Assembly: GCA_020161615.1 (NCBI GenBank)
Contig: JAIUPD010000007.1
Span: 62,001-126,000 of the forward strand
DNA length: 64,000 nt
DNA from: Pseudomonadota bacterium
Lineage (GTDB): Bacteria > Pseudomonadota > Alphaproteobacteria > Rhodobacterales > Rhodobacteraceae
Direction: 5' to 3'
Positions 13,323-43,639 of this stretch are shown here, in pieces; positions within the stretch are counted from its first letter, which is position 1, and each line of letters begins with the position of its first letter. The translations under genes and the position numbers were made by a program. The notes under the pieces are model-generated. The model saw only the letters and a list, made by a program, of their open reading frames with translations, was not told the origin of the DNA and ran no database searches.

Positions 13323-14816
13323 TCAGCCCTCGCCCCGGTCGCCCAAGAGCCGGTCTATCGGCGCGTAATCGTCGGTGAAGACGACATGCGGGCGGCTGGC
13401 CAGAATGTCATCCACTGACGAGGCCGCCACACGGATCGCAGCGCCCCAAGGCGTCGCCAGCTGCGATTGGGCGGTCGGCGCGTCCCCCGCCACCAGCACG
13501 AAGACGCGCCGGTTCTCGGCCGGGTCGTGCTGGCGCTCGGTCCAGACCTCGACACTGGGCCAGACGGCGCGCGCCGTGGCGACTATCGAGGCCAAAACCT
13601 CCAGCCGATCCATATGGTCGATCACGTTCATCAGGTACACGCCGCCGGGGTTCAGGCGGGCGCGCACCGTCTGAAAGAACTCCCGGGTGATCAGGTGCTG
13701 CGGCACGGCGATGTCGGAAAAGGCGTCGCCGATGATCACGTCATAAGTCGTGGCCTCCACCGCCAGCGTCCGGCGGGCATCGGCGTGAATGATGCGGTCG
13801 GCGCCGGGCTCGTACCAGAAATGCTCGATGGCGGCTTGCGTCACGGCCGGATCGACCTCGGCCACCGTGACCGCGACCGGCACCTCCCGCGCATGCCAGG
13901 ACCGCGGCACGGTATAGCTGCCGCCGCCGATCAGGAAGGCGGACCACTGAGCATGGTCCGCCATGCGCAGGCGCGGCAGGCCTTCCAGCATGATCCCGTG
14001 CGGCGTCAGCATTGCCGTGGGGTCAAGCCCGTCGGCCACCCCATGCACCAGATGGTCCAGCACCATGAAGCGCACGGGCGCGCCCGGCCCGCCCTCGTCG
14101 ATCACCCGGATGCAGAAATAATCGCTCTCGACCGTGCAGGGGTCGGGCTGCGACAGGGCCGACAGCGCCAGTGCTGCCGGGGCCAGCAGCGCCGCGCCCC
14201 CCGCGCCGATCCCCGCCTTGCCGCCCGCCGAGACCAGCGAGGCGATGCCGAGCACGGCATAGACCGCCGCGACCACGACCAGCGTGCCGACCGATCCCAG
14301 CCAGGAGATGAAGACGAAGCCTGCCGCCAGCGTGCCCAGGATCGCCCCCCAGGCCCCGGCCGCGAACATGGCGCCGAGCGCGCGGCCCTTGCGGTCGGGG
14401 TGGCGGACGACCGCGATCATCGACAGGATCGGCGCCGGGATCCCGGCGAAGAACGAGGGCGGGAAGAAGACCAGCAGGGTCAGCGCGACGATCGAGGCGA
14501 CCGGATCCTCCAGCGCCGTGACCACCGGCCCGGCGGCGCCCCTCAGCACGAAGACCGCGCCCGCCGTGGTGACCGAGGCCGCCAGCATCGCCCAGCCGTT
14601 CGCCCTGAGCGCCGCCTCGGGCGTGCCCTCTGCCAGCCGTCCGCCGATCCAATGCCCGGCCGAGAACCCGGCCAGCACCACGGCGATGACCGAGGTCCAG
14701 GTGTAAAGCGACATGCCGACATAGGGCGCCAGCATCCGGCCCGCCACGATCTCGACCACCAGGCTTGCCGCCGCCACGCTGGCCTGCACCGCCACCAGCA
14801 CCCAAAGTCGATGCAT
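13323..14816 (-). CDS. Membrane-fused spermidine-synthase-like protein
   Basis: A 497-residue protein. The N-terminal half has about seven hydrophobic segments (VEIVAGRMLAPYVGMSLYTW near the start). The C-terminal half is a Rossmann aminopropyltransferase/methyltransferase-like domain with IGGGSYTVPR, VAEVDPAV and DVIIGDAFS, corresponding to the SAM/dcSAM-binding and acidic substrate motifs of spermidine synthases. Such fusions are widespread, but few have proven polyamine synthase activity. A GTG at 14822 could be used; ATG 14816 with GGAACGGGG upstream is preferred. It lies downstream of the Lrp gene on the same strand. Confidence 0.75.
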   Translation of the reverse strand: MHRLWVLVAVQASVAAASLVVEIVAGRMLAPYVGMSLYTWTSVIAVVLAGFSAGHWIGGRLAEGTPEAALRANGWAMLAASVTTAGAVFVLRGAAGPVVTALEDPVASIVALTLLVFFPPSFFAGIPAPILSMIAVVRHPDRKGRALGAMFAAGAWGAILGTLAAGFVFISWLGSVGTLVVVAAVYAVLGIASLVSAGGKAGIGAGGAALLAPAALALSALSQPDPCTVESDYFCIRVIDEGGPGAPVRFMVLDHLVHGVADGLDPTAMLTPHGIMLEGLPRLRMADHAQWSAFLIGGGSYTVPRSWHAREVPVAVTVAEVDPAVTQAAIEHFWYEPGADRIIHADARRTLAVEATTYDVIIGDAFSDIAVPQHLITREFFQTVRARLNPGGVYLMNVIDHMDRLEVLASIVATARAVWPSVEVWTERQHDPAENRRVFVLVAGDAPTAQSQLATPWGAAIRVAASSVDDILASRPHVVFTDDYAPIDRLLGDRGEG

Positions 14817-14894
14817 GCCCACCCCGTTCCTGCGTTTCTGCCCGGCGCAACCTTAGTCCGTGGCCGACCGGAAAGGCAATTGAGGCCAGCTCCC

Positions 14895-36520: not shown

Positions 36521-36599
<79 letters not shown>

Positions 36600-37759: not shown

Positions 37760-39196
37760 ATGGATCAGGTGAAAGATACCCGGCCGCTTCTGGTCGTGGA
37801 TCTGGATGGAACGCTGGTGCGCTCGGACATGCTGTACGAGAGTTTCTGGTCCGCCTTCTCGCGCGATTGGCGCACGCCCTTGTCGGCGCTGGCGGCGCTG
37901 GCGCGCGGCAAGGCGGCGCTGAAGGCGCGGCTGGCGACGCTGGGCGCGCCCGATCCGGCCACCCTGCCCTATTCGGCCGAGGTGCTGGACGAGATCGGGC
38001 GCTGGCGGGCGAGCGGGGGCCGGGTGGTGCTGGTCACCGCGGCCGATCAATCCATCGCCAATGCCATCGCCAGCCATCTGGGCGTCTTTGACGAGGTGCA
38101 TGGCTCGGACGGCAGCACCAACCTCAAGGGCGAGGCGAAAGCGGCCTTCCTCAGGGCAGAATATGGCGGGGGCGGCTATGTCTATGCGGGCGACAACAGC
38201 GCCGATCTGCCGGTCTGGCGCGACGCGGCAGGGGCGGTCACCGTCGGCGTCTCCCCGGCGCTGCGCGCCCGGGTCGAGGATCTGCACCGCGACGCCCGCC
38301 ATCTCGCACCGCCGCGCTCGCTGCTGCCCGCGGCGCTCAGGGCCATGCGGCCGCACCAATGGTTCAAGAACGCGCTGATCTTCTTCCCGATGATCGCGGC
38401 GCATGATTTCAACGCCGGCGCTCTCTTGCCCAGCCTGCTGGCCGTCGTGGCCTTCAGCCTGGTCGCCTCGTCGGTCTATCTGCTCAACGATCTGCTCGAC
38501 ATCGCCTCGGACCGGGCGCATCCGAGGAAACGGCTGCGGCCGCTGGCCTCGGGCGCGCTGCCGCTTCGCAGCGGGATGCTGATGGTGCCCGCGCTTCTGC
38601 TGGCGGGGATCGGCGTGGCGGTCTTCCTGCCGCCCCTCTTCCTGCTGGTGCTGGGGGCCTATTACATCCTGACCGTCGCCTATTCGCTCTGGTTCAAGCG
38701 CCGGCCGATCCTGGACATCGCGCTTCTGGCCAGCCTCTATACGATGCGGGTGATCGCGGGCGGAGCGGCCTCGGGGATCGACCTCTCGGTCTGGCTGCTG
38801 GCCTTTTCGGCGTTCCTGTTCTTCTCGCTGGCGGCGGTGAAGCGGCAGGCGGAACTTGTGGACATGGCGCAGCGAAATGTGACCGAGGCCGCCGGGCGCG
38901 GCTATCGGGTCAGCGACCTGGCGGTGGTCACGCAGATGGCGACGGCCTCGGGCTTTGTCGCGGTGCTGGTGCTGATGCTCTATCTCAACGAGCCCGAAGT
39001 TCTGATGCTCTACCATCACCCGCTGCTTCTCTGGGCGGCCTGCCTCGTGCTGCTCTATTGGGTGTCGCGCATGGTGCTGGTGGCCAGCCGCGGCCGGATG
39101 AACGACGACCCCACCGTCTTTGCCGCCCGCGATCCGGCGAGCCTCGTCAGCGTGGCGATCATCGGGGCGCTGTTCATCGGCGCGAAGGTGCTGTGA
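37760..39196 (+). CDS. HAD phosphatase-UbiA prenyltransferase fusion (DPPR synthase-like, NoeC-like)
   Basis: A 478-residue fusion. Residues 1-190 are a HAD phosphatase with DLDGT at 14-18 and the third and fourth HAD motifs later (KGEAKAAF, VYAGDNSADLP). The rest is a UbiA prenyltransferase with about eight transmembrane segments: NDLLDIASDRAHP at 243-255 (Asn243, Asp244, Asp247, Asp251) corresponds to the NDVRDVEADREHP site of mycobacterial Rv3806c. That enzyme transfers phosphoribosyl diphosphate to decaprenyl phosphate; the HAD part could then remove the 5-phosphate. Azorhizobium NoeC has a similar fused layout. The stop overlaps gtrA. ATG 37739 is an alternative start. Confidence 0.8.
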   Translation: MDQVKDTRPLLVVDLDGTLVRSDMLYESFWSAFSRDWRTPLSALAALARGKAALKARLATLGAPDPATLPYSAEVLDEIGRWRASGGRVVLVTAADQSIANAIASHLGVFDEVHGSDGSTNLKGEAKAAFLRAEYGGGGYVYAGDNSADLPVWRDAAGAVTVGVSPALRARVEDLHRDARHLAPPRSLLPAALRAMRPHQWFKNALIFFPMIAAHDFNAGALLPSLLAVVAFSLVASSVYLLNDLLDIASDRAHPRKRLRPLASGALPLRSGMLMVPALLLAGIGVAVFLPPLFLLVLGAYYILTVAYSLWFKRRPILDIALLASLYTMRVIAGGAASGIDLSVWLLAFSAFLFFSLAAVKRQAELVDMAQRNVTEAAGRGYRVSDLAVVTQMATASGFVAVLVLMLYLNEPEVLMLYHHPLLLWAACLVLLYWVSRMVLVASRGRMNDDPTVFAARDPASLVSVAIIGALFIGAKVL

Positions 39197-39615
39197 TGGT
39201 CAGCGGCTGGACCCTGCTGTGGCGCTACAGCCTCTTTGCCGTGCTGGCGACCGTCTCGAACCTCGGCGCGCAACGGCTGGTGCTGATGGGCGGCGACCGG
39301 CCGGGGCGCTACCTGCTGGCGGTTCTGGCGGGCACGGCCGTGGGACTGGTGGTGAAATACATCCTCGACAAGCGCTGGATCTTCGGCGACGACGAGACGG
39401 GGCTCAAGGCCCATGGCCGCAAGTTCACCCTCTACACAATCATGGGCGGGGTCACGACAGCGCTGTTCTGGGGGGCCGAAACGGGTTTCTGGCTGTGGTT
39501 CGGCACGCATGAGGCGCGCGAGATCGGCGCACTTCTGGGGCTGATGGTGGGGTATGTGGTGAAATACCAACTCGACCGGCGCATCACCTTCGCGCCCCGA
39601 CCGGAGGGTCCGTGA
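39196..39615 (+). CDS. GtrA-family membrane protein
   Basis: A 139-residue protein with four predicted membrane helices and the GtrA features VLATVSNLGAQR, GLVVKYILDKRWIF and MVGYVVKYQLDRRITF. GtrA proteins are thought to help move polyprenyl-phosphate-linked sugars across the membrane or to anchor transferases; mycobacterial Rv3789 plays such a role next to DprE1. The start overlaps the HAD-UbiA stop (TGATG), and its stop overlaps the next start. Confidence 0.88.
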   Translation: MVSGWTLLWRYSLFAVLATVSNLGAQRLVLMGGDRPGRYLLAVLAGTAVGLVVKYILDKRWIFGDDETGLKAHGRKFTLYTIMGGVTTALFWGAETGFWLWFGTHEAREIGALLGLMVGYVVKYQLDRRITFAPRPEGP

Positions 39616-40934
39616 TGCTTCTGTCCGGCTGGGGCCGCTATCCACGCGCCGAGGGACGGCTGAGCGCCCCCCGCAACGAGGCCGAGGTCGCGGCGCTGGT
39701 GCGCGGCGGCGGCATCACCCCGCGCGGCATGGGGCGGGCCTATGGCGATCCGGCGATCGGGGCGCATGCCGTCTCGACCCGGCACCTCGACCGGATGCTG
39801 GCCTTCGACGAGGCGACGGGGCAGCTGGTCGCCGAGACGGGCGTGACGCTGGGGGAGATCATCAAGGCCTTCCTGCCGCGGGGCTGGTTCCCCTCGGTCA
39901 CACCGGGGACGCAGTTCGTTTCGCTGGGCGGCGCCATCGCCGCCGATGTGCATGGCAAGAACCACCATGCCGAGGGCGCCTTCGGCGCTTTCGTCGACTG
40001 GATCGACCTGATGGGGCCGGAAGGCCAGATCCTCCGCTGTTCGCGCGGGGAGAATGCCGACCTCTTCCACTGGACACTGGGCGGCATGGGGCTGGCCGGA
40101 TTCATCCTGCGCGCGGCAATCCGGCTGAAGCGCGTGGAAAGCGGCTGGATCCGGCAGACGACGCTGGCCGCCCCCAATCTCGAAGCCGCGTTGGAGGCCT
40201 TCGAGGCCACCTATGACGCGACCTATTCCATGGCCTGGATAGATTGTGCCGCGACCGGCGCGCGGATGGGCCGTTCCATCGTCATGAACGGCGAACATGC
40301 CCGGCTGTCGGACCTGCCGCCTGCCCGCCGCGCCCAACCCTTTGCCGCGCGGGGGCATCTGAGCCCCAGGGTGCCCTTCGACTTCCCCGGCTTCGTGCTG
40401 AACCCCTGGACCATTCGCGCCTTCAACGAGCTCTATTACCTGATGGGCAGACGCGGCGCCGGGACCCGCCTCACCGGCTGGGAGCCCTTCTTCTACCCGC
40501 TCGACGCGATCCGCGACTGGAACCGGATCTACGGGCGGCGCGGCTTCATGCAATTCCAATGCGTCGTGCCGCTGGCAACGCGGGCCGAGGGGCTGCGCGC
40601 CATCCTCGACGCCATCACCCGCAGCGGCGCGGGCTCGTTCCTGGCGGTGCTGAAACGCTTCGGCCCGCAGGAGAGCCGCCTCTCCTTCCCGATGGAGGGC
40701 TATACGCTGGCCCTCGACTTCCCCGTCAATCACCGGAGCCTCGATCTGATGCCCGACCTCGACCGCATCACCGCCGATTTCGGCGGCCGCTTCTACCTGG
40801 CCAAGGACAGCCGGATCTCGGCCGAGACGCTGCGCCGGACGGACCCCCGCTGGCAGGCCTTCGCCGCGATGCGCCGGGAAACCGGCCTTGCGCAGGCCTT
40901 CACCTCGGCCCAGGCGTCGAGGTTGGGGCTGTGA
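39615..40934 (+). CDS. dprE1: FAD-dependent decaprenyl-phosphoryl-ribose oxidase-like protein (DprE1-like)
   Basis: A 439-residue FAD oxidase of the VAO/PCMH fold. The first domain shows SGWGRYPRAEG, GRAYGDPAIG, and the region GGAIAADVHGKNHHAEGAFG, which closely matches mycobacterial DprE1; the substrate domain continues FFYPLDAIRDWNRIYGRRGFMQFQ. Lys397 in LAKDSRIS matches catalytic Lys418 of the M. tuberculosis enzyme, whereas the residue equivalent to Cys387 is alanine (Ala366 in YTLALDFP). It would oxidise the C2 hydroxyl of a polyprenyl-phosphoryl-ribose to the keto sugar. A GTG at 39612 could also start it; GGAGG is at 39603. Confidence 0.82.
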   Translation: MLLSGWGRYPRAEGRLSAPRNEAEVAALVRGGGITPRGMGRAYGDPAIGAHAVSTRHLDRMLAFDEATGQLVAETGVTLGEIIKAFLPRGWFPSVTPGTQFVSLGGAIAADVHGKNHHAEGAFGAFVDWIDLMGPEGQILRCSRGENADLFHWTLGGMGLAGFILRAAIRLKRVESGWIRQTTLAAPNLEAALEAFEATYDATYSMAWIDCAATGARMGRSIVMNGEHARLSDLPPARRAQPFAARGHLSPRVPFDFPGFVLNPWTIRAFNELYYLMGRRGAGTRLTGWEPFFYPLDAIRDWNRIYGRRGFMQFQCVVPLATRAEGLRAILDAITRSGAGSFLAVLKRFGPQESRLSFPMEGYTLALDFPVNHRSLDLMPDLDRITADFGGRFYLAKDSRISAETLRRTDPRWQAFAAMRRETGLAQAFTSAQASRLGL

Positions 40935-41665
40935 GCGGCGTCGCCCTGATCCTGGGCGCGACCTCGGACATCGCCCGGGCCTGCGCGCATCGCTATGGCG
41001 CCGAAGGGTACACGCTGCAGCTGGCGGGCCGCGACCCCGAGGCGCTGGAGGCCGACGCGCAGGACCTGCGGCTGCGCCACCGTGTCAAGGTCAGCGTACA
41101 CCGTTTCGACGTGCTGGAAGCCGACGGCTTTGCCCCCTTCCTCGATGCCCTGCCCACCCTGCCCGACACGGCGATCTGCGCCGTGGGCTTCATGGGCAAC
41201 CAGGGCGCCAGCGAAAAGGACCCGCAGGCGGCCGCGCTGATCATGCGCTCGAATTACGAGGGGCCGGCGATGATCCTGGGCCTGCTGGCCGAGCGGATGG
41301 CCCTGCGCGGGCATGGGGTGCTGATCGGCATCTCCTCGGTCGCGGGCGACCGCGGCCGGGCCTCGAACTACATCTATGGCTCGGCCAAGGCCGGATTCAC
41401 CGCCTTTCTCAGCGGTCTCAGAAACCGCTTTCACGGCACCGACCTGCATGTGGTCACCGTGAAGCCCGGGTTCGTCGCCACGCGGATGACCGAGGGCATG
41501 GACCTGAACCCCCGCCTCACCGCGCTGCCGGAACAGGTGGCCGAGGCCATCTGGCAGGCCGAAAAGCACCGCCGCGACGTGATTTACGTGAAGCCCGTCT
41601 GGCGGGTCATCATGCAGATCATCTCGGCCCTGCCCGAATTCCTGTTCAAGCGCACCCGGCTCTAG
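40931..41665 (+). CDS. dprE2: SDR reductase (DprE2-like, decaprenyl-phosphoryl-2-keto-ribose reductase)
   Basis: A 244-residue SDR that would reduce the keto intermediate made by the DprE1-like protein to the arabinose epimer. It begins with GTG at 40931, overlapping the dprE1-like stop (GTGA). The Rossmann motif GATSDIA is at residues 9-15, with Ser136, Tyr149 and Lys153 in ISSVAGDRGRASNYIYGSAKAG, similar to the mycobacterial DprE2 [21 protein letters not shown]. The C-terminus FKRTRL is basic and may touch the membrane. Together with the previous genes it completes the DPA pathway. Confidence 0.82.
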   Translation: MSGVALILGATSDIARACAHRYGAEGYTLQLAGRDPEALEADAQDLRLRHRVKVSVHRFDVLEADGFAPFLDALPTLPDTAICAVGFMGNQGASEKDPQAAALIMRSNYEGPAMILGLLAERMALRGHGVLIGISSVAGDRGRASNYIYGSAKAGFTAFLSGLRNRFHGTDLHVVTVKPGFVATRMTEGMDLNPRLTALPEQVAEAIWQAEKHRRDVIYVKPVWRVIMQIISALPEFLFKRTRL

Positions 41666-42049
41666 CATTCGGACGGGGCCGTGCATCGTCAGGGGGCTGA
41701 CGGTCGGGATGCCGTTGCCGGCCGGGTCCTTTCATGCCCCCTCCTCGAAAGGCAAGTCCGGCAGCCAACCGCCCCGCGCCAACAGGCTGCCGCAGGTCCC
41801 GCGCAGCAGAGTTTACGTCGCAGTAAGGTTAAGCGGGCAATCTGGCAATCGCGCGACTCAGGGCCTTTCGGAGGCGAAAGCGAACCGCCGCGGGGCGCAT
41901 TTCCTTTCGCTTTGCGGCCGCCGGGTTTCGCGGCGACTTTCTGCGCTGCGGCATCGGCAAGGCGCCGCCGATCCCGGGCCGGGCTGTGGATAGATTTATT
42001 GCCGGTTCACGCAAAGGTGGGTAAGCCTGAAGGCATGACGAGGGACAGA
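41666..42049. other. Intergenic region between the dprE2-like gene and the envelope protein gene
   Basis: No gene is seen in these 384 bases. There is a short hairpin CGTCAG/CTGACG (41687-41702) soon after the dprE2-like stop, which may end that operon, and an 8-bp stem CGGCAGCC/GGCTGCCG (41759-41792). An A/T-richer stretch near 41810-41850 and 41980-42010 could hold the promoter of the next gene. Confidence 0.4.
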
Positions 42050-43639
42050 ATGGAACCGCGTGCCGCAAAGGCGCGCCTCTTCGCGAGTGCGGGACAGATC
42101 ACGCTTGCCGCCACCGGCCTGGGGGCTCTGGCGCTGATCGCGGTCGGCGCTCAGGCGTTGTGGCATGCCGAACCCGCCCGCCCGGGTTCGGTGGCGGTGG
42201 CCTCGCTGGGGCCATCGCTGGATCTGGACCGGCGGCAGAGCGCCGGAAGCGAGGGGCCGCGCATCTGGCTCTCCTCGCTGTCCAGCACGGGCGAGAGCCC
42301 CTTTGCCGCGCCCGATTACGCGCTGGACCCGGTGCTGCCGCGCCGCGCCGCCGTGACGCCCGCCGCACCGGTCGCCCCCGCGCGGGAGGCCGCGCCCGTC
42401 GCCGCGCCGCAGGTCGCAGTCGCGACGCCGCCCGAGGTCCCCGCGCCCGCCCCGCAAGCAGAGCCCGTGCCGCAGATCGCCACGCGGGAAGGCCCGCCGC
42501 GCGTGACGCCCCCGCGCCGCCCGACCGTCGCTGCGCCGGAGGTGGCGACCGCGCCCGACGCGCCGGCCGATCCGCTGGCCCTGGCCGCGCTGCATGCCCC
42601 GACGCGCTCGCTGCTGCCGCGGCCCCGCCCGGCCCTTGCCGCGCCTGCGGCCGAGGAACCGGCGCCCGAACAATCGCCCTCGCTCCTTGCCGCCATCGGC
42701 GAGGCCACCGGCCTGATCCGCTCGCGCACGCCGCAACCCCGGCCCGAGGCCGTCACCCGCCTCGCCTCGCTCGATTTGGGCCGCGCCGCGCCGCAGGCCT
42801 CGGCGCCCGTCGCGACCCCCGCCGCCCTTGAAATCCCGGCGCTGACCCGGGGCGCCCGCAGCGCCAGTTGCGATGCCGACCTGACCCGCGCCATCCCCCG
42901 CCGCAGCCGCGGCGCAGGCGACGGCAGCGCTGTCGTCGGCCGGCTGACCAATGCGGGCGGACGCGATCGCGACAATGCCGTCATCGCCGAGGTTCTCGCG
43001 GGCAACGTCCCGGATTTCCTGCGCGATCTGGTGCCGGTCACCTTTTCGGGCGATGGCATGACCATCACCATCTGCGTGATGCCCGATTACCTGGCCGTGG
43101 GATCGAACCGCGATTTCGTCCGCGTGCCGCTGGGCCTGCCCGCCGCCATGCAGGTGGCCGAGCGGTTCGACATGGTGCTGCCCACGACCCGCATGGTCGA
43201 TGCGATCTATCAGCAGGCCAATGTCCGCCTGAGCCCGGCGCCGATGGATCCGACCTCGGCCATGTCCTCGACCAATTACTTCCTGCGCCACAATGCCACC
43301 GTTCAGGGGCAGATGCGGCAATCGGGCGCCCGGCTGGGGCAGCTGGTGTCGGGGCACAAGAAGGATCTGGTGCTGACCAACCGGCTGCAATCGAACCCGG
43401 GCCGCGTGGCGATCTATGGCTGGCACCAGCGCAATGGCCGGGCCATCCAGCCGCTCAGCACCGTGCATGGCGCGCAATACGCCGATTACAGCCACGGCAT
43501 CCGGCTGGTCTCGCGCCGGGCCTATGTCAACGGGCGGGCGGTGGATCTGCGGGACCTTCTCTCAGACAGCCGGATGGCGGGGCTGGTGTCCTCAGAAGGC
43601 ACGATCAGCAACCGCCAGCTTCTGGCGCTCGCCGACTAA
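42050..43639 (+). CDS. Membrane-anchored Pro/Ala-rich protein of unknown function
   Basis: A 529-residue protein. Residues about 10-35 form a single hydrophobic anchor (LFASAGQITLAATGLGALALIAVGAQALW), then about 230 residues of Pro/Ala/Arg-rich low complexity, then a globular C-terminal domain of about 250 residues. The latter contains CDADLTRA, MTITICVMPDYLAVGSNRDFVR, GHKKDLVLTNRL and GRVAIYGWHQ followed by YADYSHGIRLVSRRA, a pattern I recall from conserved unnamed proteins, so the domain is probably periplasmic. No catalytic family is recognised. Start 42050 (GAGGGA upstream) is chosen over ATG 42035, which lacks proper spacing. A hairpin follows the stop. Confidence 0.75.
   Translation: MEPRAAKARLFASAGQITLAATGLGALALIAVGAQALWHAEPARPGSVAVASLGPSLDLDRRQSAGSEGPRIWLSSLSSTGESPFAAPDYALDPVLPRRAAVTPAAPVAPAREAAPVAAPQVAVATPPEVPAPAPQAEPVPQIATREGPPRVTPPRRPTVAAPEVATAPDAPADPLALAALHAPTRSLLPRPRPALAAPAAEEPAPEQSPSLLAAIGEATGLIRSRTPQPRPEAVTRLASLDLGRAAPQASAPVATPAALEIPALTRGARSASCDADLTRAIPRRSRGAGDGSAVVGRLTNAGGRDRDNAVIAEVLAGNVPDFLRDLVPVTFSGDGMTITICVMPDYLAVGSNRDFVRVPLGLPAAMQVAERFDMVLPTTRMVDAIYQQANVRLSPAPMDPTSAMSSTNYFLRHNATVQGQMRQSGARLGQLVSGHKKDLVLTNRLQSNPGRVAIYGWHQRNGRAIQPLSTVHGAQYADYSHGIRLVSRRAYVNGRAVDLRDLLSDSRMAGLVSSEGTISNRQLLALAD

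Follow-up and report, generated by a model that had tools for sequence, protein, structure and literature searches.

A predicted operon for polyprenyl-phosphate-linked D-arabinofuranose in a Rhodobacteraceae genome

Introduction

Four overlapping genes in a genome of the Rhodobacteraceae resemble enzymes of the mycobacterial D-arabinofuranose donor pathway, and they raise the question of whether this bacterium makes such a donor and to what it would attach the sugar. The genes occupy positions 37760–41665, on the + strand, of the 64,000-nucleotide stretch of DNA analyzed here (contig JAIUPD010000007.1, C7:62001-126000, from a genome of 4.87 Mb in 26 contigs), which we call the window. In order, they encode a HAD-UbiA fusion, a GtrA protein, a DprE1-like oxidase and a DprE2-like reductase, as a first-pass annotation had proposed and as the coordinates confirm, together with domain matches much stronger than chance would give. 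Each gene is joined to the next by a stop/start overlap (TGATG, TGATG and GTGA, in order), and the G+C content of the cassette is 0.687 vs. 0.684 for the window. Judged on the sequences, this operon very probably makes and exports polyprenyl-phosphate-linked D-arabinofuranose. It is a well-supported donor operon of a kind already known and common in the family.

We infer the individual reactions, their order and the flipping step from relatives of these proteins. The UbiA domain would transfer ribose-5-phosphate from phosphoribosyl pyrophosphate (PRPP) to polyprenyl phosphate, and the fused HAD domain would take off the 5'-phosphate. The DprE1-like enzyme would then oxidize the ribose at C2, and the DprE2-like enzyme would reduce it with inversion to give D-arabinofuranose. 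GtrA would carry the lipid-linked sugar across the inner membrane, and an arabinosyltransferase of the GT-C class, from another part of the genome, would pass the sugar to an envelope glycan or glycoprotein. The first-pass annotation had named the product decaprenyl-phosphoryl-arabinose (DPA). A route from PRPP to a polyprenyl-phosphoryl-D-arabinose is supported by the family matches, the solved relatives, the catalytic residues, the order of genes held in common with cassettes from nod regions, the co-occurrence with synthase and AftB-like genes, and the purifying selection described below. The decaprenol part, however, was presumed, and Kelly 2024 (PMC11127046) gives undecaprenol as typical of Gram-negatives.

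The HAD-UbiA fusion

What can be read from the sequences themselves is family membership, catalytic residues, gene overlaps, selection and co-occurrence. Gene 1 (37760–39196, + strand, 478 amino acids) encodes a HAD-UbiA fusion, a predicted polyprenyl-phosphate 5-phosphoribosyltransferase and 5'-phosphatase. The HAD phosphatase domain covers residues 12–152 (37793–38215; PF12710, 42.7 bits), and the UbiA domain covers residues 221–450 (38420–39109; PF01040, 88.8 bits). The HAD domain with its catalytic aspartate lies N-terminal to UbiA, which is the arrangement of the PRP-PPPRS fusions. Against NF006088 the protein scores 616.6 bits (cut-off 351), although that model carries only the generic name 'UbiA family prenyltransferase'. 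The PRK12324 models for DPPRS give 177.5, 138.1 and 136.8 bits, below their equivalog cut-offs of 207, 234 and 474; other characterized UbiA families give 43 bits or less. Since the PRK12324 cut-offs are missed and the NF006088 name is generic, the DPPRS-type assignment is made through motifs and structural relatives. In a Protein Data Bank (PDB) search, the best match was DPPR synthase 8j8j (E 3.4e-31), and chains of DPPR synthase were the sole matches at E ≤ 0.001.

The catalytic residues were followed through an alignment of 92 rows, consisting of the window, 80 loci from other genomes and 11 plasmid loci. The 80 loci are the best of 120 confirmed gene 1 matches, and since they were chosen in this way the sample is biased toward the window's gene 1. 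The positions of catalytic type in the HAD domain are D14, the predicted nucleophile, in the motif DLDGT (37799–37813), followed by D16, T93 and K123. D14 is present in 90 of the 92 rows and missing only from two nod-plasmid copies that lack a HAD domain (L094 and L098); the others are less constant, with D16 in 89 rows, T93 in 81 plus 8 with serine, and K123 in 80. In the UbiA domain, the motif residues are N243-D244-D247-D251 (38486–38512), H254-K257-R260-P261, and R362 and E365 (38843–38854). All of these are shared by 91 of the 92 rows. The exception, L061, is a metagenome contig (L061:10001-11407) whose HAD-UbiA frame is interrupted by a stop codon at residue 26, either a sequencing error or a broken gene, so that its reading ends before these positions.

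The nearest experimental reference is ORF15 of Citrobacter youngae, also a HAD-UbiA protein. Kelly 2024 (PMC11127046) reports that ORF15 converts PRPP to farnesyl-P-ribofuranose in vitro, that D18 is required for full phosphatase action with D18A still yielding slight product, and that N247, D248, D251 and D255 matter to the transferase while R366A and E369A are still active. Gene 1 has the N-D-x-x-D-x-x-x-D and R..E motifs of ORF15 and Rv3806c (N243, D244, D247, D251, R362, E365). The ORF15 residues D18, N247, D248, D251, D255, R366 and E369 correspond to window residues D14, N243, D244, D247, D251, R362 and E365 at a constant offset of four, a match made by motifs and numbering and not by sequence alignment.

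The oxidase, the reductase and the GtrA protein

Gene 3 encodes the DprE1-like flavin adenine dinucleotide (FAD) oxidase, starting at 39612 (GTG) or 39615 (ATG) and ending at 40934 on the + strand. Its PDB matches begin with chains of DprE1 (E 1e-78 to 1e-72), after which only distant flavoproteins follow, from E 1e-7 onward. Compared with a 461-amino-acid PDB chain of DprE1, from which the mycobacterial residue numbers are taken, gene 3 is identical at 162 of 434 aligned residues (37%). We take the active site of mycobacterial DprE1 to comprise Y60, H132, W230, Q334, Q336, K367, K418, Y314, N385 and C387. Gene 3 has the FAD domain together with the equivalents of the set from Y60 to K418. Those of Y60, H132, W230, Q334, Q336 and K367 are kept in all 73 oxidase rows examined, and that of K418 is kept in 72 with one gap.

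In a DprE1 tree of 74 rows, in which the mycobacterial outgroup has a very long branch, the window falls within an 11-row Pararhodobacter clade (100/100). Both nod-plasmid copies fall in a separate supported clade of 16 rows (100/95) with 9 Rhodobacterales rows, adjoining two rows from Agrobacterium and two from metagenomes, unclassified within the Alphaproteobacteria. Both clades lie inside a supported group of 68 rows (98/94) in which the inner order is unresolved.

Gene 4 (40931–41665, + strand, GTG start) encodes the DprE2-like reductase, a short-chain dehydrogenase/reductase (SDR) matched by NF053786 and, at 341 bits (cut-off 267), by PRK07102, an SDR model without a named function. Its best PDB match is DprE2 (21gq_C, E 2.9e-26), with the next at 3.1e-13. 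The Ser-Tyr-Lys residues of SDR enzymes are in place, S134 being found in 71 of 72 rows and S135, Y148 and K152 in all 72. The kinship to Rv3806c, DprE1 and DprE2 claimed at first pass is thus upheld, in that the best solved relatives of the three enzymes are DPPR synthase, DprE1 and DprE2.

Gene 2 (39196–39615, + strand) encodes a GtrA family membrane protein (gtrA_1, 162.5 bits; PF04138, 44.8 bits) with a GtrA_DPMS_TM domain, and is a predicted flippase for the lipid-linked pentose.

The closest named match to gene 1 comes from Pararhodobacter aggregans, with 95% amino acid identity. Against that species, the ratio of nonsynonymous to synonymous substitution rates (dN/dS) is 0.093, 0.100, 0.148 and 0.088 for genes 1 to 4 in a single pairwise comparison, so that, as judged from one close relative, all four genes are under purifying selection. 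A scan of the cassette region for promoters and terminators gave no signal above shuffled sequence.

Distribution and gene order among relatives

The window's four-gene order recurs in 59 of the 80 loci, the window itself excluded. The remainder comprise 11 loci with HAD-UbiA alone, 5 with HAD-UbiA and GtrA, and 5 with other combinations, some of them cut by contig ends. The loci whose fetched stretch holds HAD-UbiA with no GtrA, DprE1 or DprE2 match are L022, L031, L034, L037, L039, L041, L052, L057, L060, L064 and L083. Thioclava sp. SK-1 (L078:10001-12588) has HAD-UbiA, GtrA and a DprE2-like gene, and nothing in the stretch fetched there matches DprE1.

The wider distribution was examined in a sample of 120 genomes of the same family, one per genus, with the window genome included. 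A DprE1 homologue occurs in 38 of these (E ≤ 1e-40), and 47 have the NF006088 synthase (E ≤ 1e-60), 45 of them above the model's cut-off. Both occur in 36 genomes, DprE1 only in 2, the synthase only in 11 and neither in 71 (Fisher p 1.7e-18). In G052, counted with both, and in G004, counted with the synthase only, the match to NF006088 is confined to its UbiA part. UbiA copies without a HAD part were seen in G070, G080, G052 and G004, those of G070 and G080 being second copies. Among 289 genomes drawn from the class, again with the window genome included, DprE1 was found in 33 (E ≤ 1e-60). By these counts, the cassette is not exceptional for an alphaproteobacterium. A literature search, mostly short of full texts, found no report of this pathway for Rhodobacteraceae.

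The noe cassettes of nod plasmids

A kinship to noe genes had also been suggested at first pass, and it is borne out by plasmids of Rhizobium sp. IRBG74 (record name Agrobacterium pusense; L094) and Sinorhizobium alkalisoli (L098). There the order UbiA, GtrA, DprE1-like, DprE2-like is the same as in the window up to the reductase. Next comes the arabinosyltransferase NoeP, a membrane protein of 401 amino acids with 88% identity from one plasmid to the other, and nodA and nodB are nearby. The window's oxidase is 58% and 59% identical to the two nod-plasmid oxidases, its reductase is 58% identical to that of IRBG74, and its GtrA is 50% identical to that of IRBG74 over 124 amino acids. Two differences stand out. 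The nod-plasmid UbiA (NoeC; with the GtrA gene after it, L094:7422-9004 and L098:4422-6004) has no HAD domain, being 387 amino acids as annotated, and no HAD remnant was found at E < 1 in the fetched stretches. Also, NoeP follows and nod genes adjoin the noe cassettes, whereas the window has neither among its domain-scanned genes and so lacks what marks a noe operon.

According to PMC5080398, deletion of noeP in the IRBG74 operon noeC-noeN-noeH-noeO-noeP abolishes arabinosylation of the Nod factor, deletion of noeN reduces it, and the authors suggested that NoeN might be the missing phosphatase. Gene 2 is the counterpart of NoeN by position and sequence, with a predicted flippase role. Since NoeN is the annotated GtrA by operon order and the UbiA there has no HAD domain, we infer that NoeN is a flippase and that another enzyme would supply the phosphatase. 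On the same sequence grounds, the published guess of NoeN as a phosphatase is doubtful.

Candidate arabinosyltransferases in relatives

In 15 of the 59 four-gene loci, a membrane protein of 330 or more amino acids, as judged by a crude count of membrane helices, lies on the same strand beside or inside the cassette. The one at L020 is an M50 peptidase, which leaves 14, and two further partners (L032 and L059) come from a separate listing. Among ten representatives scanned first, 1 was GT87 (L063), 2 were PMT_2 (L031 and L083, both HAD-UbiA-only loci) and 7 had no Pfam family; later Pfam scans added a PMT_2 next to the cassette of L014, which has all four genes, and a GT87 at L059.

A profile (A1) was built from seven proteins of six loci, those from L072, L032, L050 and L018 lying beside or inside the cassette and those from L035 and L029 several kb off. 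Its sole PDB match is AftB (E 1.7e-12), and the Asp and Glu that are invariant in it line up with D62 and E172 of AftB, which are the proposed nucleophile and a residue that binds sugar, respectively (PMC12041299). A1 matches 15 of the 120 family genomes, and 13 of the 15 are DprE1-positive (Fisher p 4e-6); an AftB-like match is missing from 25 of the 38 DprE1-positive genomes. That AftB-like and GT87 proteins of the GT-C class neighbor the cassettes of relatives is a new observation, and it makes both families candidate partner arabinosyltransferases there.

Weighing the donor reading

A number of observations weigh against the reading of the cassette as a D-arabinofuranose donor operon. The score of gene 3 against the DprE1 equivalog model NF053785 (398.3 bits, E 5.6e-119) is below the cut-off of 500, which none of the 120 family genomes or the 289 class genomes reaches, and that of gene 4 against the DprE2 model NF053786 (185.7 bits, E 1.2e-54) is below its cut-off of 250. 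'DprE1-like' and 'DprE2-like' are therefore the proper names. At three positions of the oxidase, the mycobacterial residue is replaced: Y314 by Phe in 73 of 73 rows, N385 by Thr in 71 or Ser in 2, and C387 by Ala in all 73, the nod-plasmid oxidases included. The alanine codon equivalent to Cys387 is at 40710–40712. Only a minority of the genomes with DprE1 and the synthase, 8 of 36, have the two in the co-directional order of the window; in 21 they are on opposite strands within ~2 kb, in 1 they are 18 kb apart and in 6 they are on separate contigs. We had considered that the gene order might be conserved family-wide, and that idea was rejected, the order being found in 59 of 80 close relatives but in 8 of these 36. 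The co-occurrence p values overstate independence because related genomes share ancestry. The IRBG74 deletions, as given in the available part of PMC5080398, cover noeP and noeN, with NoeH and NoeO not singly deleted. A GT87 profile (A2) matches 6 of the 120 genomes, of which 3 are DprE1-positive (p 0.38), so an association of GT87 with DprE1 was rejected as not significant.

To these must be added the searches for a transferase. The first-pass annotation had proposed a genome search for GT-C arabinosyltransferases, and it came back empty for each family tried: GT87 (PF09594, E ≤ 10; 6 of 14 control genomes matched), PMT_2 (PF13231, E ≤ 0.1; 11 of 14 controls matched), the AftB-like profile A1 (E ≤ 10; others of the family matched) and a NoeP profile, A4 (E ≤ 10; no positive control). 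The window's genome was also without a match to one relative's GT87 protein (E ≤ 0.01, no positive control) or, in the family search, to A2 (E ≤ 1e-6; other family genomes matched). The GT-C member of a three-component pentofuranose system was not found in a genome search of four families, which left other GT-C families unsearched. No large membrane protein lies beside the cassette, and no GT-C is adjacent to it or among the window's Pfam-scanned membrane proteins. Apart from the cassette, the window encodes the following proteins with at least 6 predicted helices: TrkH, CtaA, two permeases of ABC systems, an ammonium transporter, and a protein at 13323–14822 with only a weak Pfam match to spermidine synthase.

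If the donor is made, the acceptor could be a protein, either pilin or another surface protein, instead of a polysaccharide. This alternative is compatible with the donor pathway, and we regard it as unlikely while giving it real weight. Kelly 2024 (PMC11127046) cites a protein route for type IV pili of P. aeruginosa and predicts one for P. syringae. In line with the first-pass annotation, the scanned window genes include no nod gene or arabinosyltransferase, and the lack of a lipopolysaccharide gene among the Pfam-scanned neighbors would fit a protein acceptor. On the other hand, the partners that relatives have (AftB-like, GT87 and NoeP) suggest glycans, and the genome does have polysaccharide genes, with four Bac_transf sites, one of them with a Wzx-like gene. 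That one, on C18 (L090:11335-18481), encodes Polysacc_synt_3 (Wzx-like), a glycosyltransferase of group 1 and a hexapeptide transferase, and it is possibly the source of the acceptor glycan. Among ten proteins scanned, from ten stretches around the four sites, there was no recognizable arabinosyltransferase. The C18 locus also encodes a 403-amino-acid membrane protein without a Pfam family.

It is considerably less probable that the cassette makes another lipid-linked pentofuranose, ribofuranose or xylofuranose, with the redox chemistry at another carbon or with the ribose form also used. Ribose and xylose variants are described in Kelly 2024 (PMC11127046). In 16 of the 80 loci, the stretch fetched has HAD-UbiA and no match to either DprE1 or DprE2; 11 of these have HAD-UbiA alone and 5 have it with GtrA, L017 among the 5 running to the end of its contig. 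It is therefore plausible that some relatives use ribose only. The HAD-UbiA loci with no GtrA, DprE1 or DprE2 match, of which L031 and L083 are beside a PMT_2 gene, are possibly ribofuranose rather than arabinofuranose systems. For the window, however, genes 3 and 4 match DprE1 and DprE2 specifically, as opposed to the one SDR epimerase that serves the xylose system, and orthologues of both sit in the nod arabinosylation cassette. The least probable alternative, an orphan relic that has lost its arabinosyltransferase, would fit the empty searches for GT87, PMT_2, AftB-like and NoeP homologues and the want of a large membrane protein beside the cassette, but it is opposed by the purifying selection on all four genes (dN/dS 0.088–0.148 vs. 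P. aggregans), by the intact catalytic residues, by the persistence of the oxidase through the 11-row Pararhodobacter clade, and by the diversity of transferases in relatives, which makes a family outside the searches likely.

Returning to D-arabinofuranose, we tentatively offer a broader proposal, which is plausible without being the favored outcome. Many Rhodobacterales may make D-arabinofuranose envelope glycans with machinery of mycobacterial type from end to end, combining a donor module with an exchangeable GT-C (AftB-like, GT87, PMT_2, NoeP or undescribed), with the nod version as one offshoot and the window organism using an arabinosyltransferase of an undescribed family. The donor reading itself predicts D-arabinose in the envelopes of organisms from about one third of the sampled family genera (38 of 120), and these would offer environmental model organisms for a pathway mainly studied in mycobacteria. 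The useful additions here are the HAD-UbiA fusion, the suggested new role for NoeN as a GtrA protein by operon order and not a phosphatase, and the naming of candidate partner transferases (AftB-like and GT87) in relatives.

Neighboring genes

A tRNA-Thr lies at 36524–36599, ~1.2 kb upstream of the cassette. Directly downstream, at 41681–43639, is a protein with one predicted helix and a strongly conserved C-terminal domain, and it recurs close to the cassette in 12 of 81 loci, a total that counts the window with the 80 fetched. It was dropped as a cassette partner because it has no Pfam match and its AlphaFold model is poor (mean predicted local distance difference test score 49.5). In relatives, an FGE-sulfatase-like gene (L081:11052-13804, with Pfam tested in L081 only) has similar genes beside the cassettes of L012, L037 and L077, and an unassigned gene of ~580–620 amino acids likewise recurs beside several cassettes of this group (L081, L012, L037, L077). 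In Ruegeria sp. ANG-R, a membrane protein of the Exosortase EpsH type by Pfam (L014:15056-16690) is close to the cassette.

Comparison with known systems

The mycobacterial DPA pathway (Rv3806c, Rv3807c, Rv3789, DprE1, DprE2) and the window have the UbiA synthase, the oxidase and the reductase in common, and also a small predicted exporter, proposed to be Rv3789 in mycobacteria and GtrA here. The match to the mycobacterial route drawn at first pass holds for these three enzymes and not for the 5'-phosphatase; in the window the predicted 5'-phosphatase is the HAD domain, to which Rv3807c is unrelated (PMC11127046). The window's oxidase, 37% identical to mycobacterial DprE1, has Phe at position 314, Thr at 385 and Ala at 387.

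The remaining comparisons rest on Kelly 2024 (PMC11127046). Pseudomonas aeruginosa PA7, cited there for D-arabinofuranosylation of pilin, is a Gram-negative with a proposed lipid-linked D-arabinose donor; it differs in having a separate phosphatase and in pilin being the acceptor. The three-component system of Citrobacter youngae O1/O2 (ORF15, GT136) has the HAD-UbiA fusion as in the window. Its flippase is of the MATE type and the sugar it adds is ribose, or xylose by way of one SDR, whereas the window has GtrA and the DprE1/DprE2-like pair, with no GT-C nearby.

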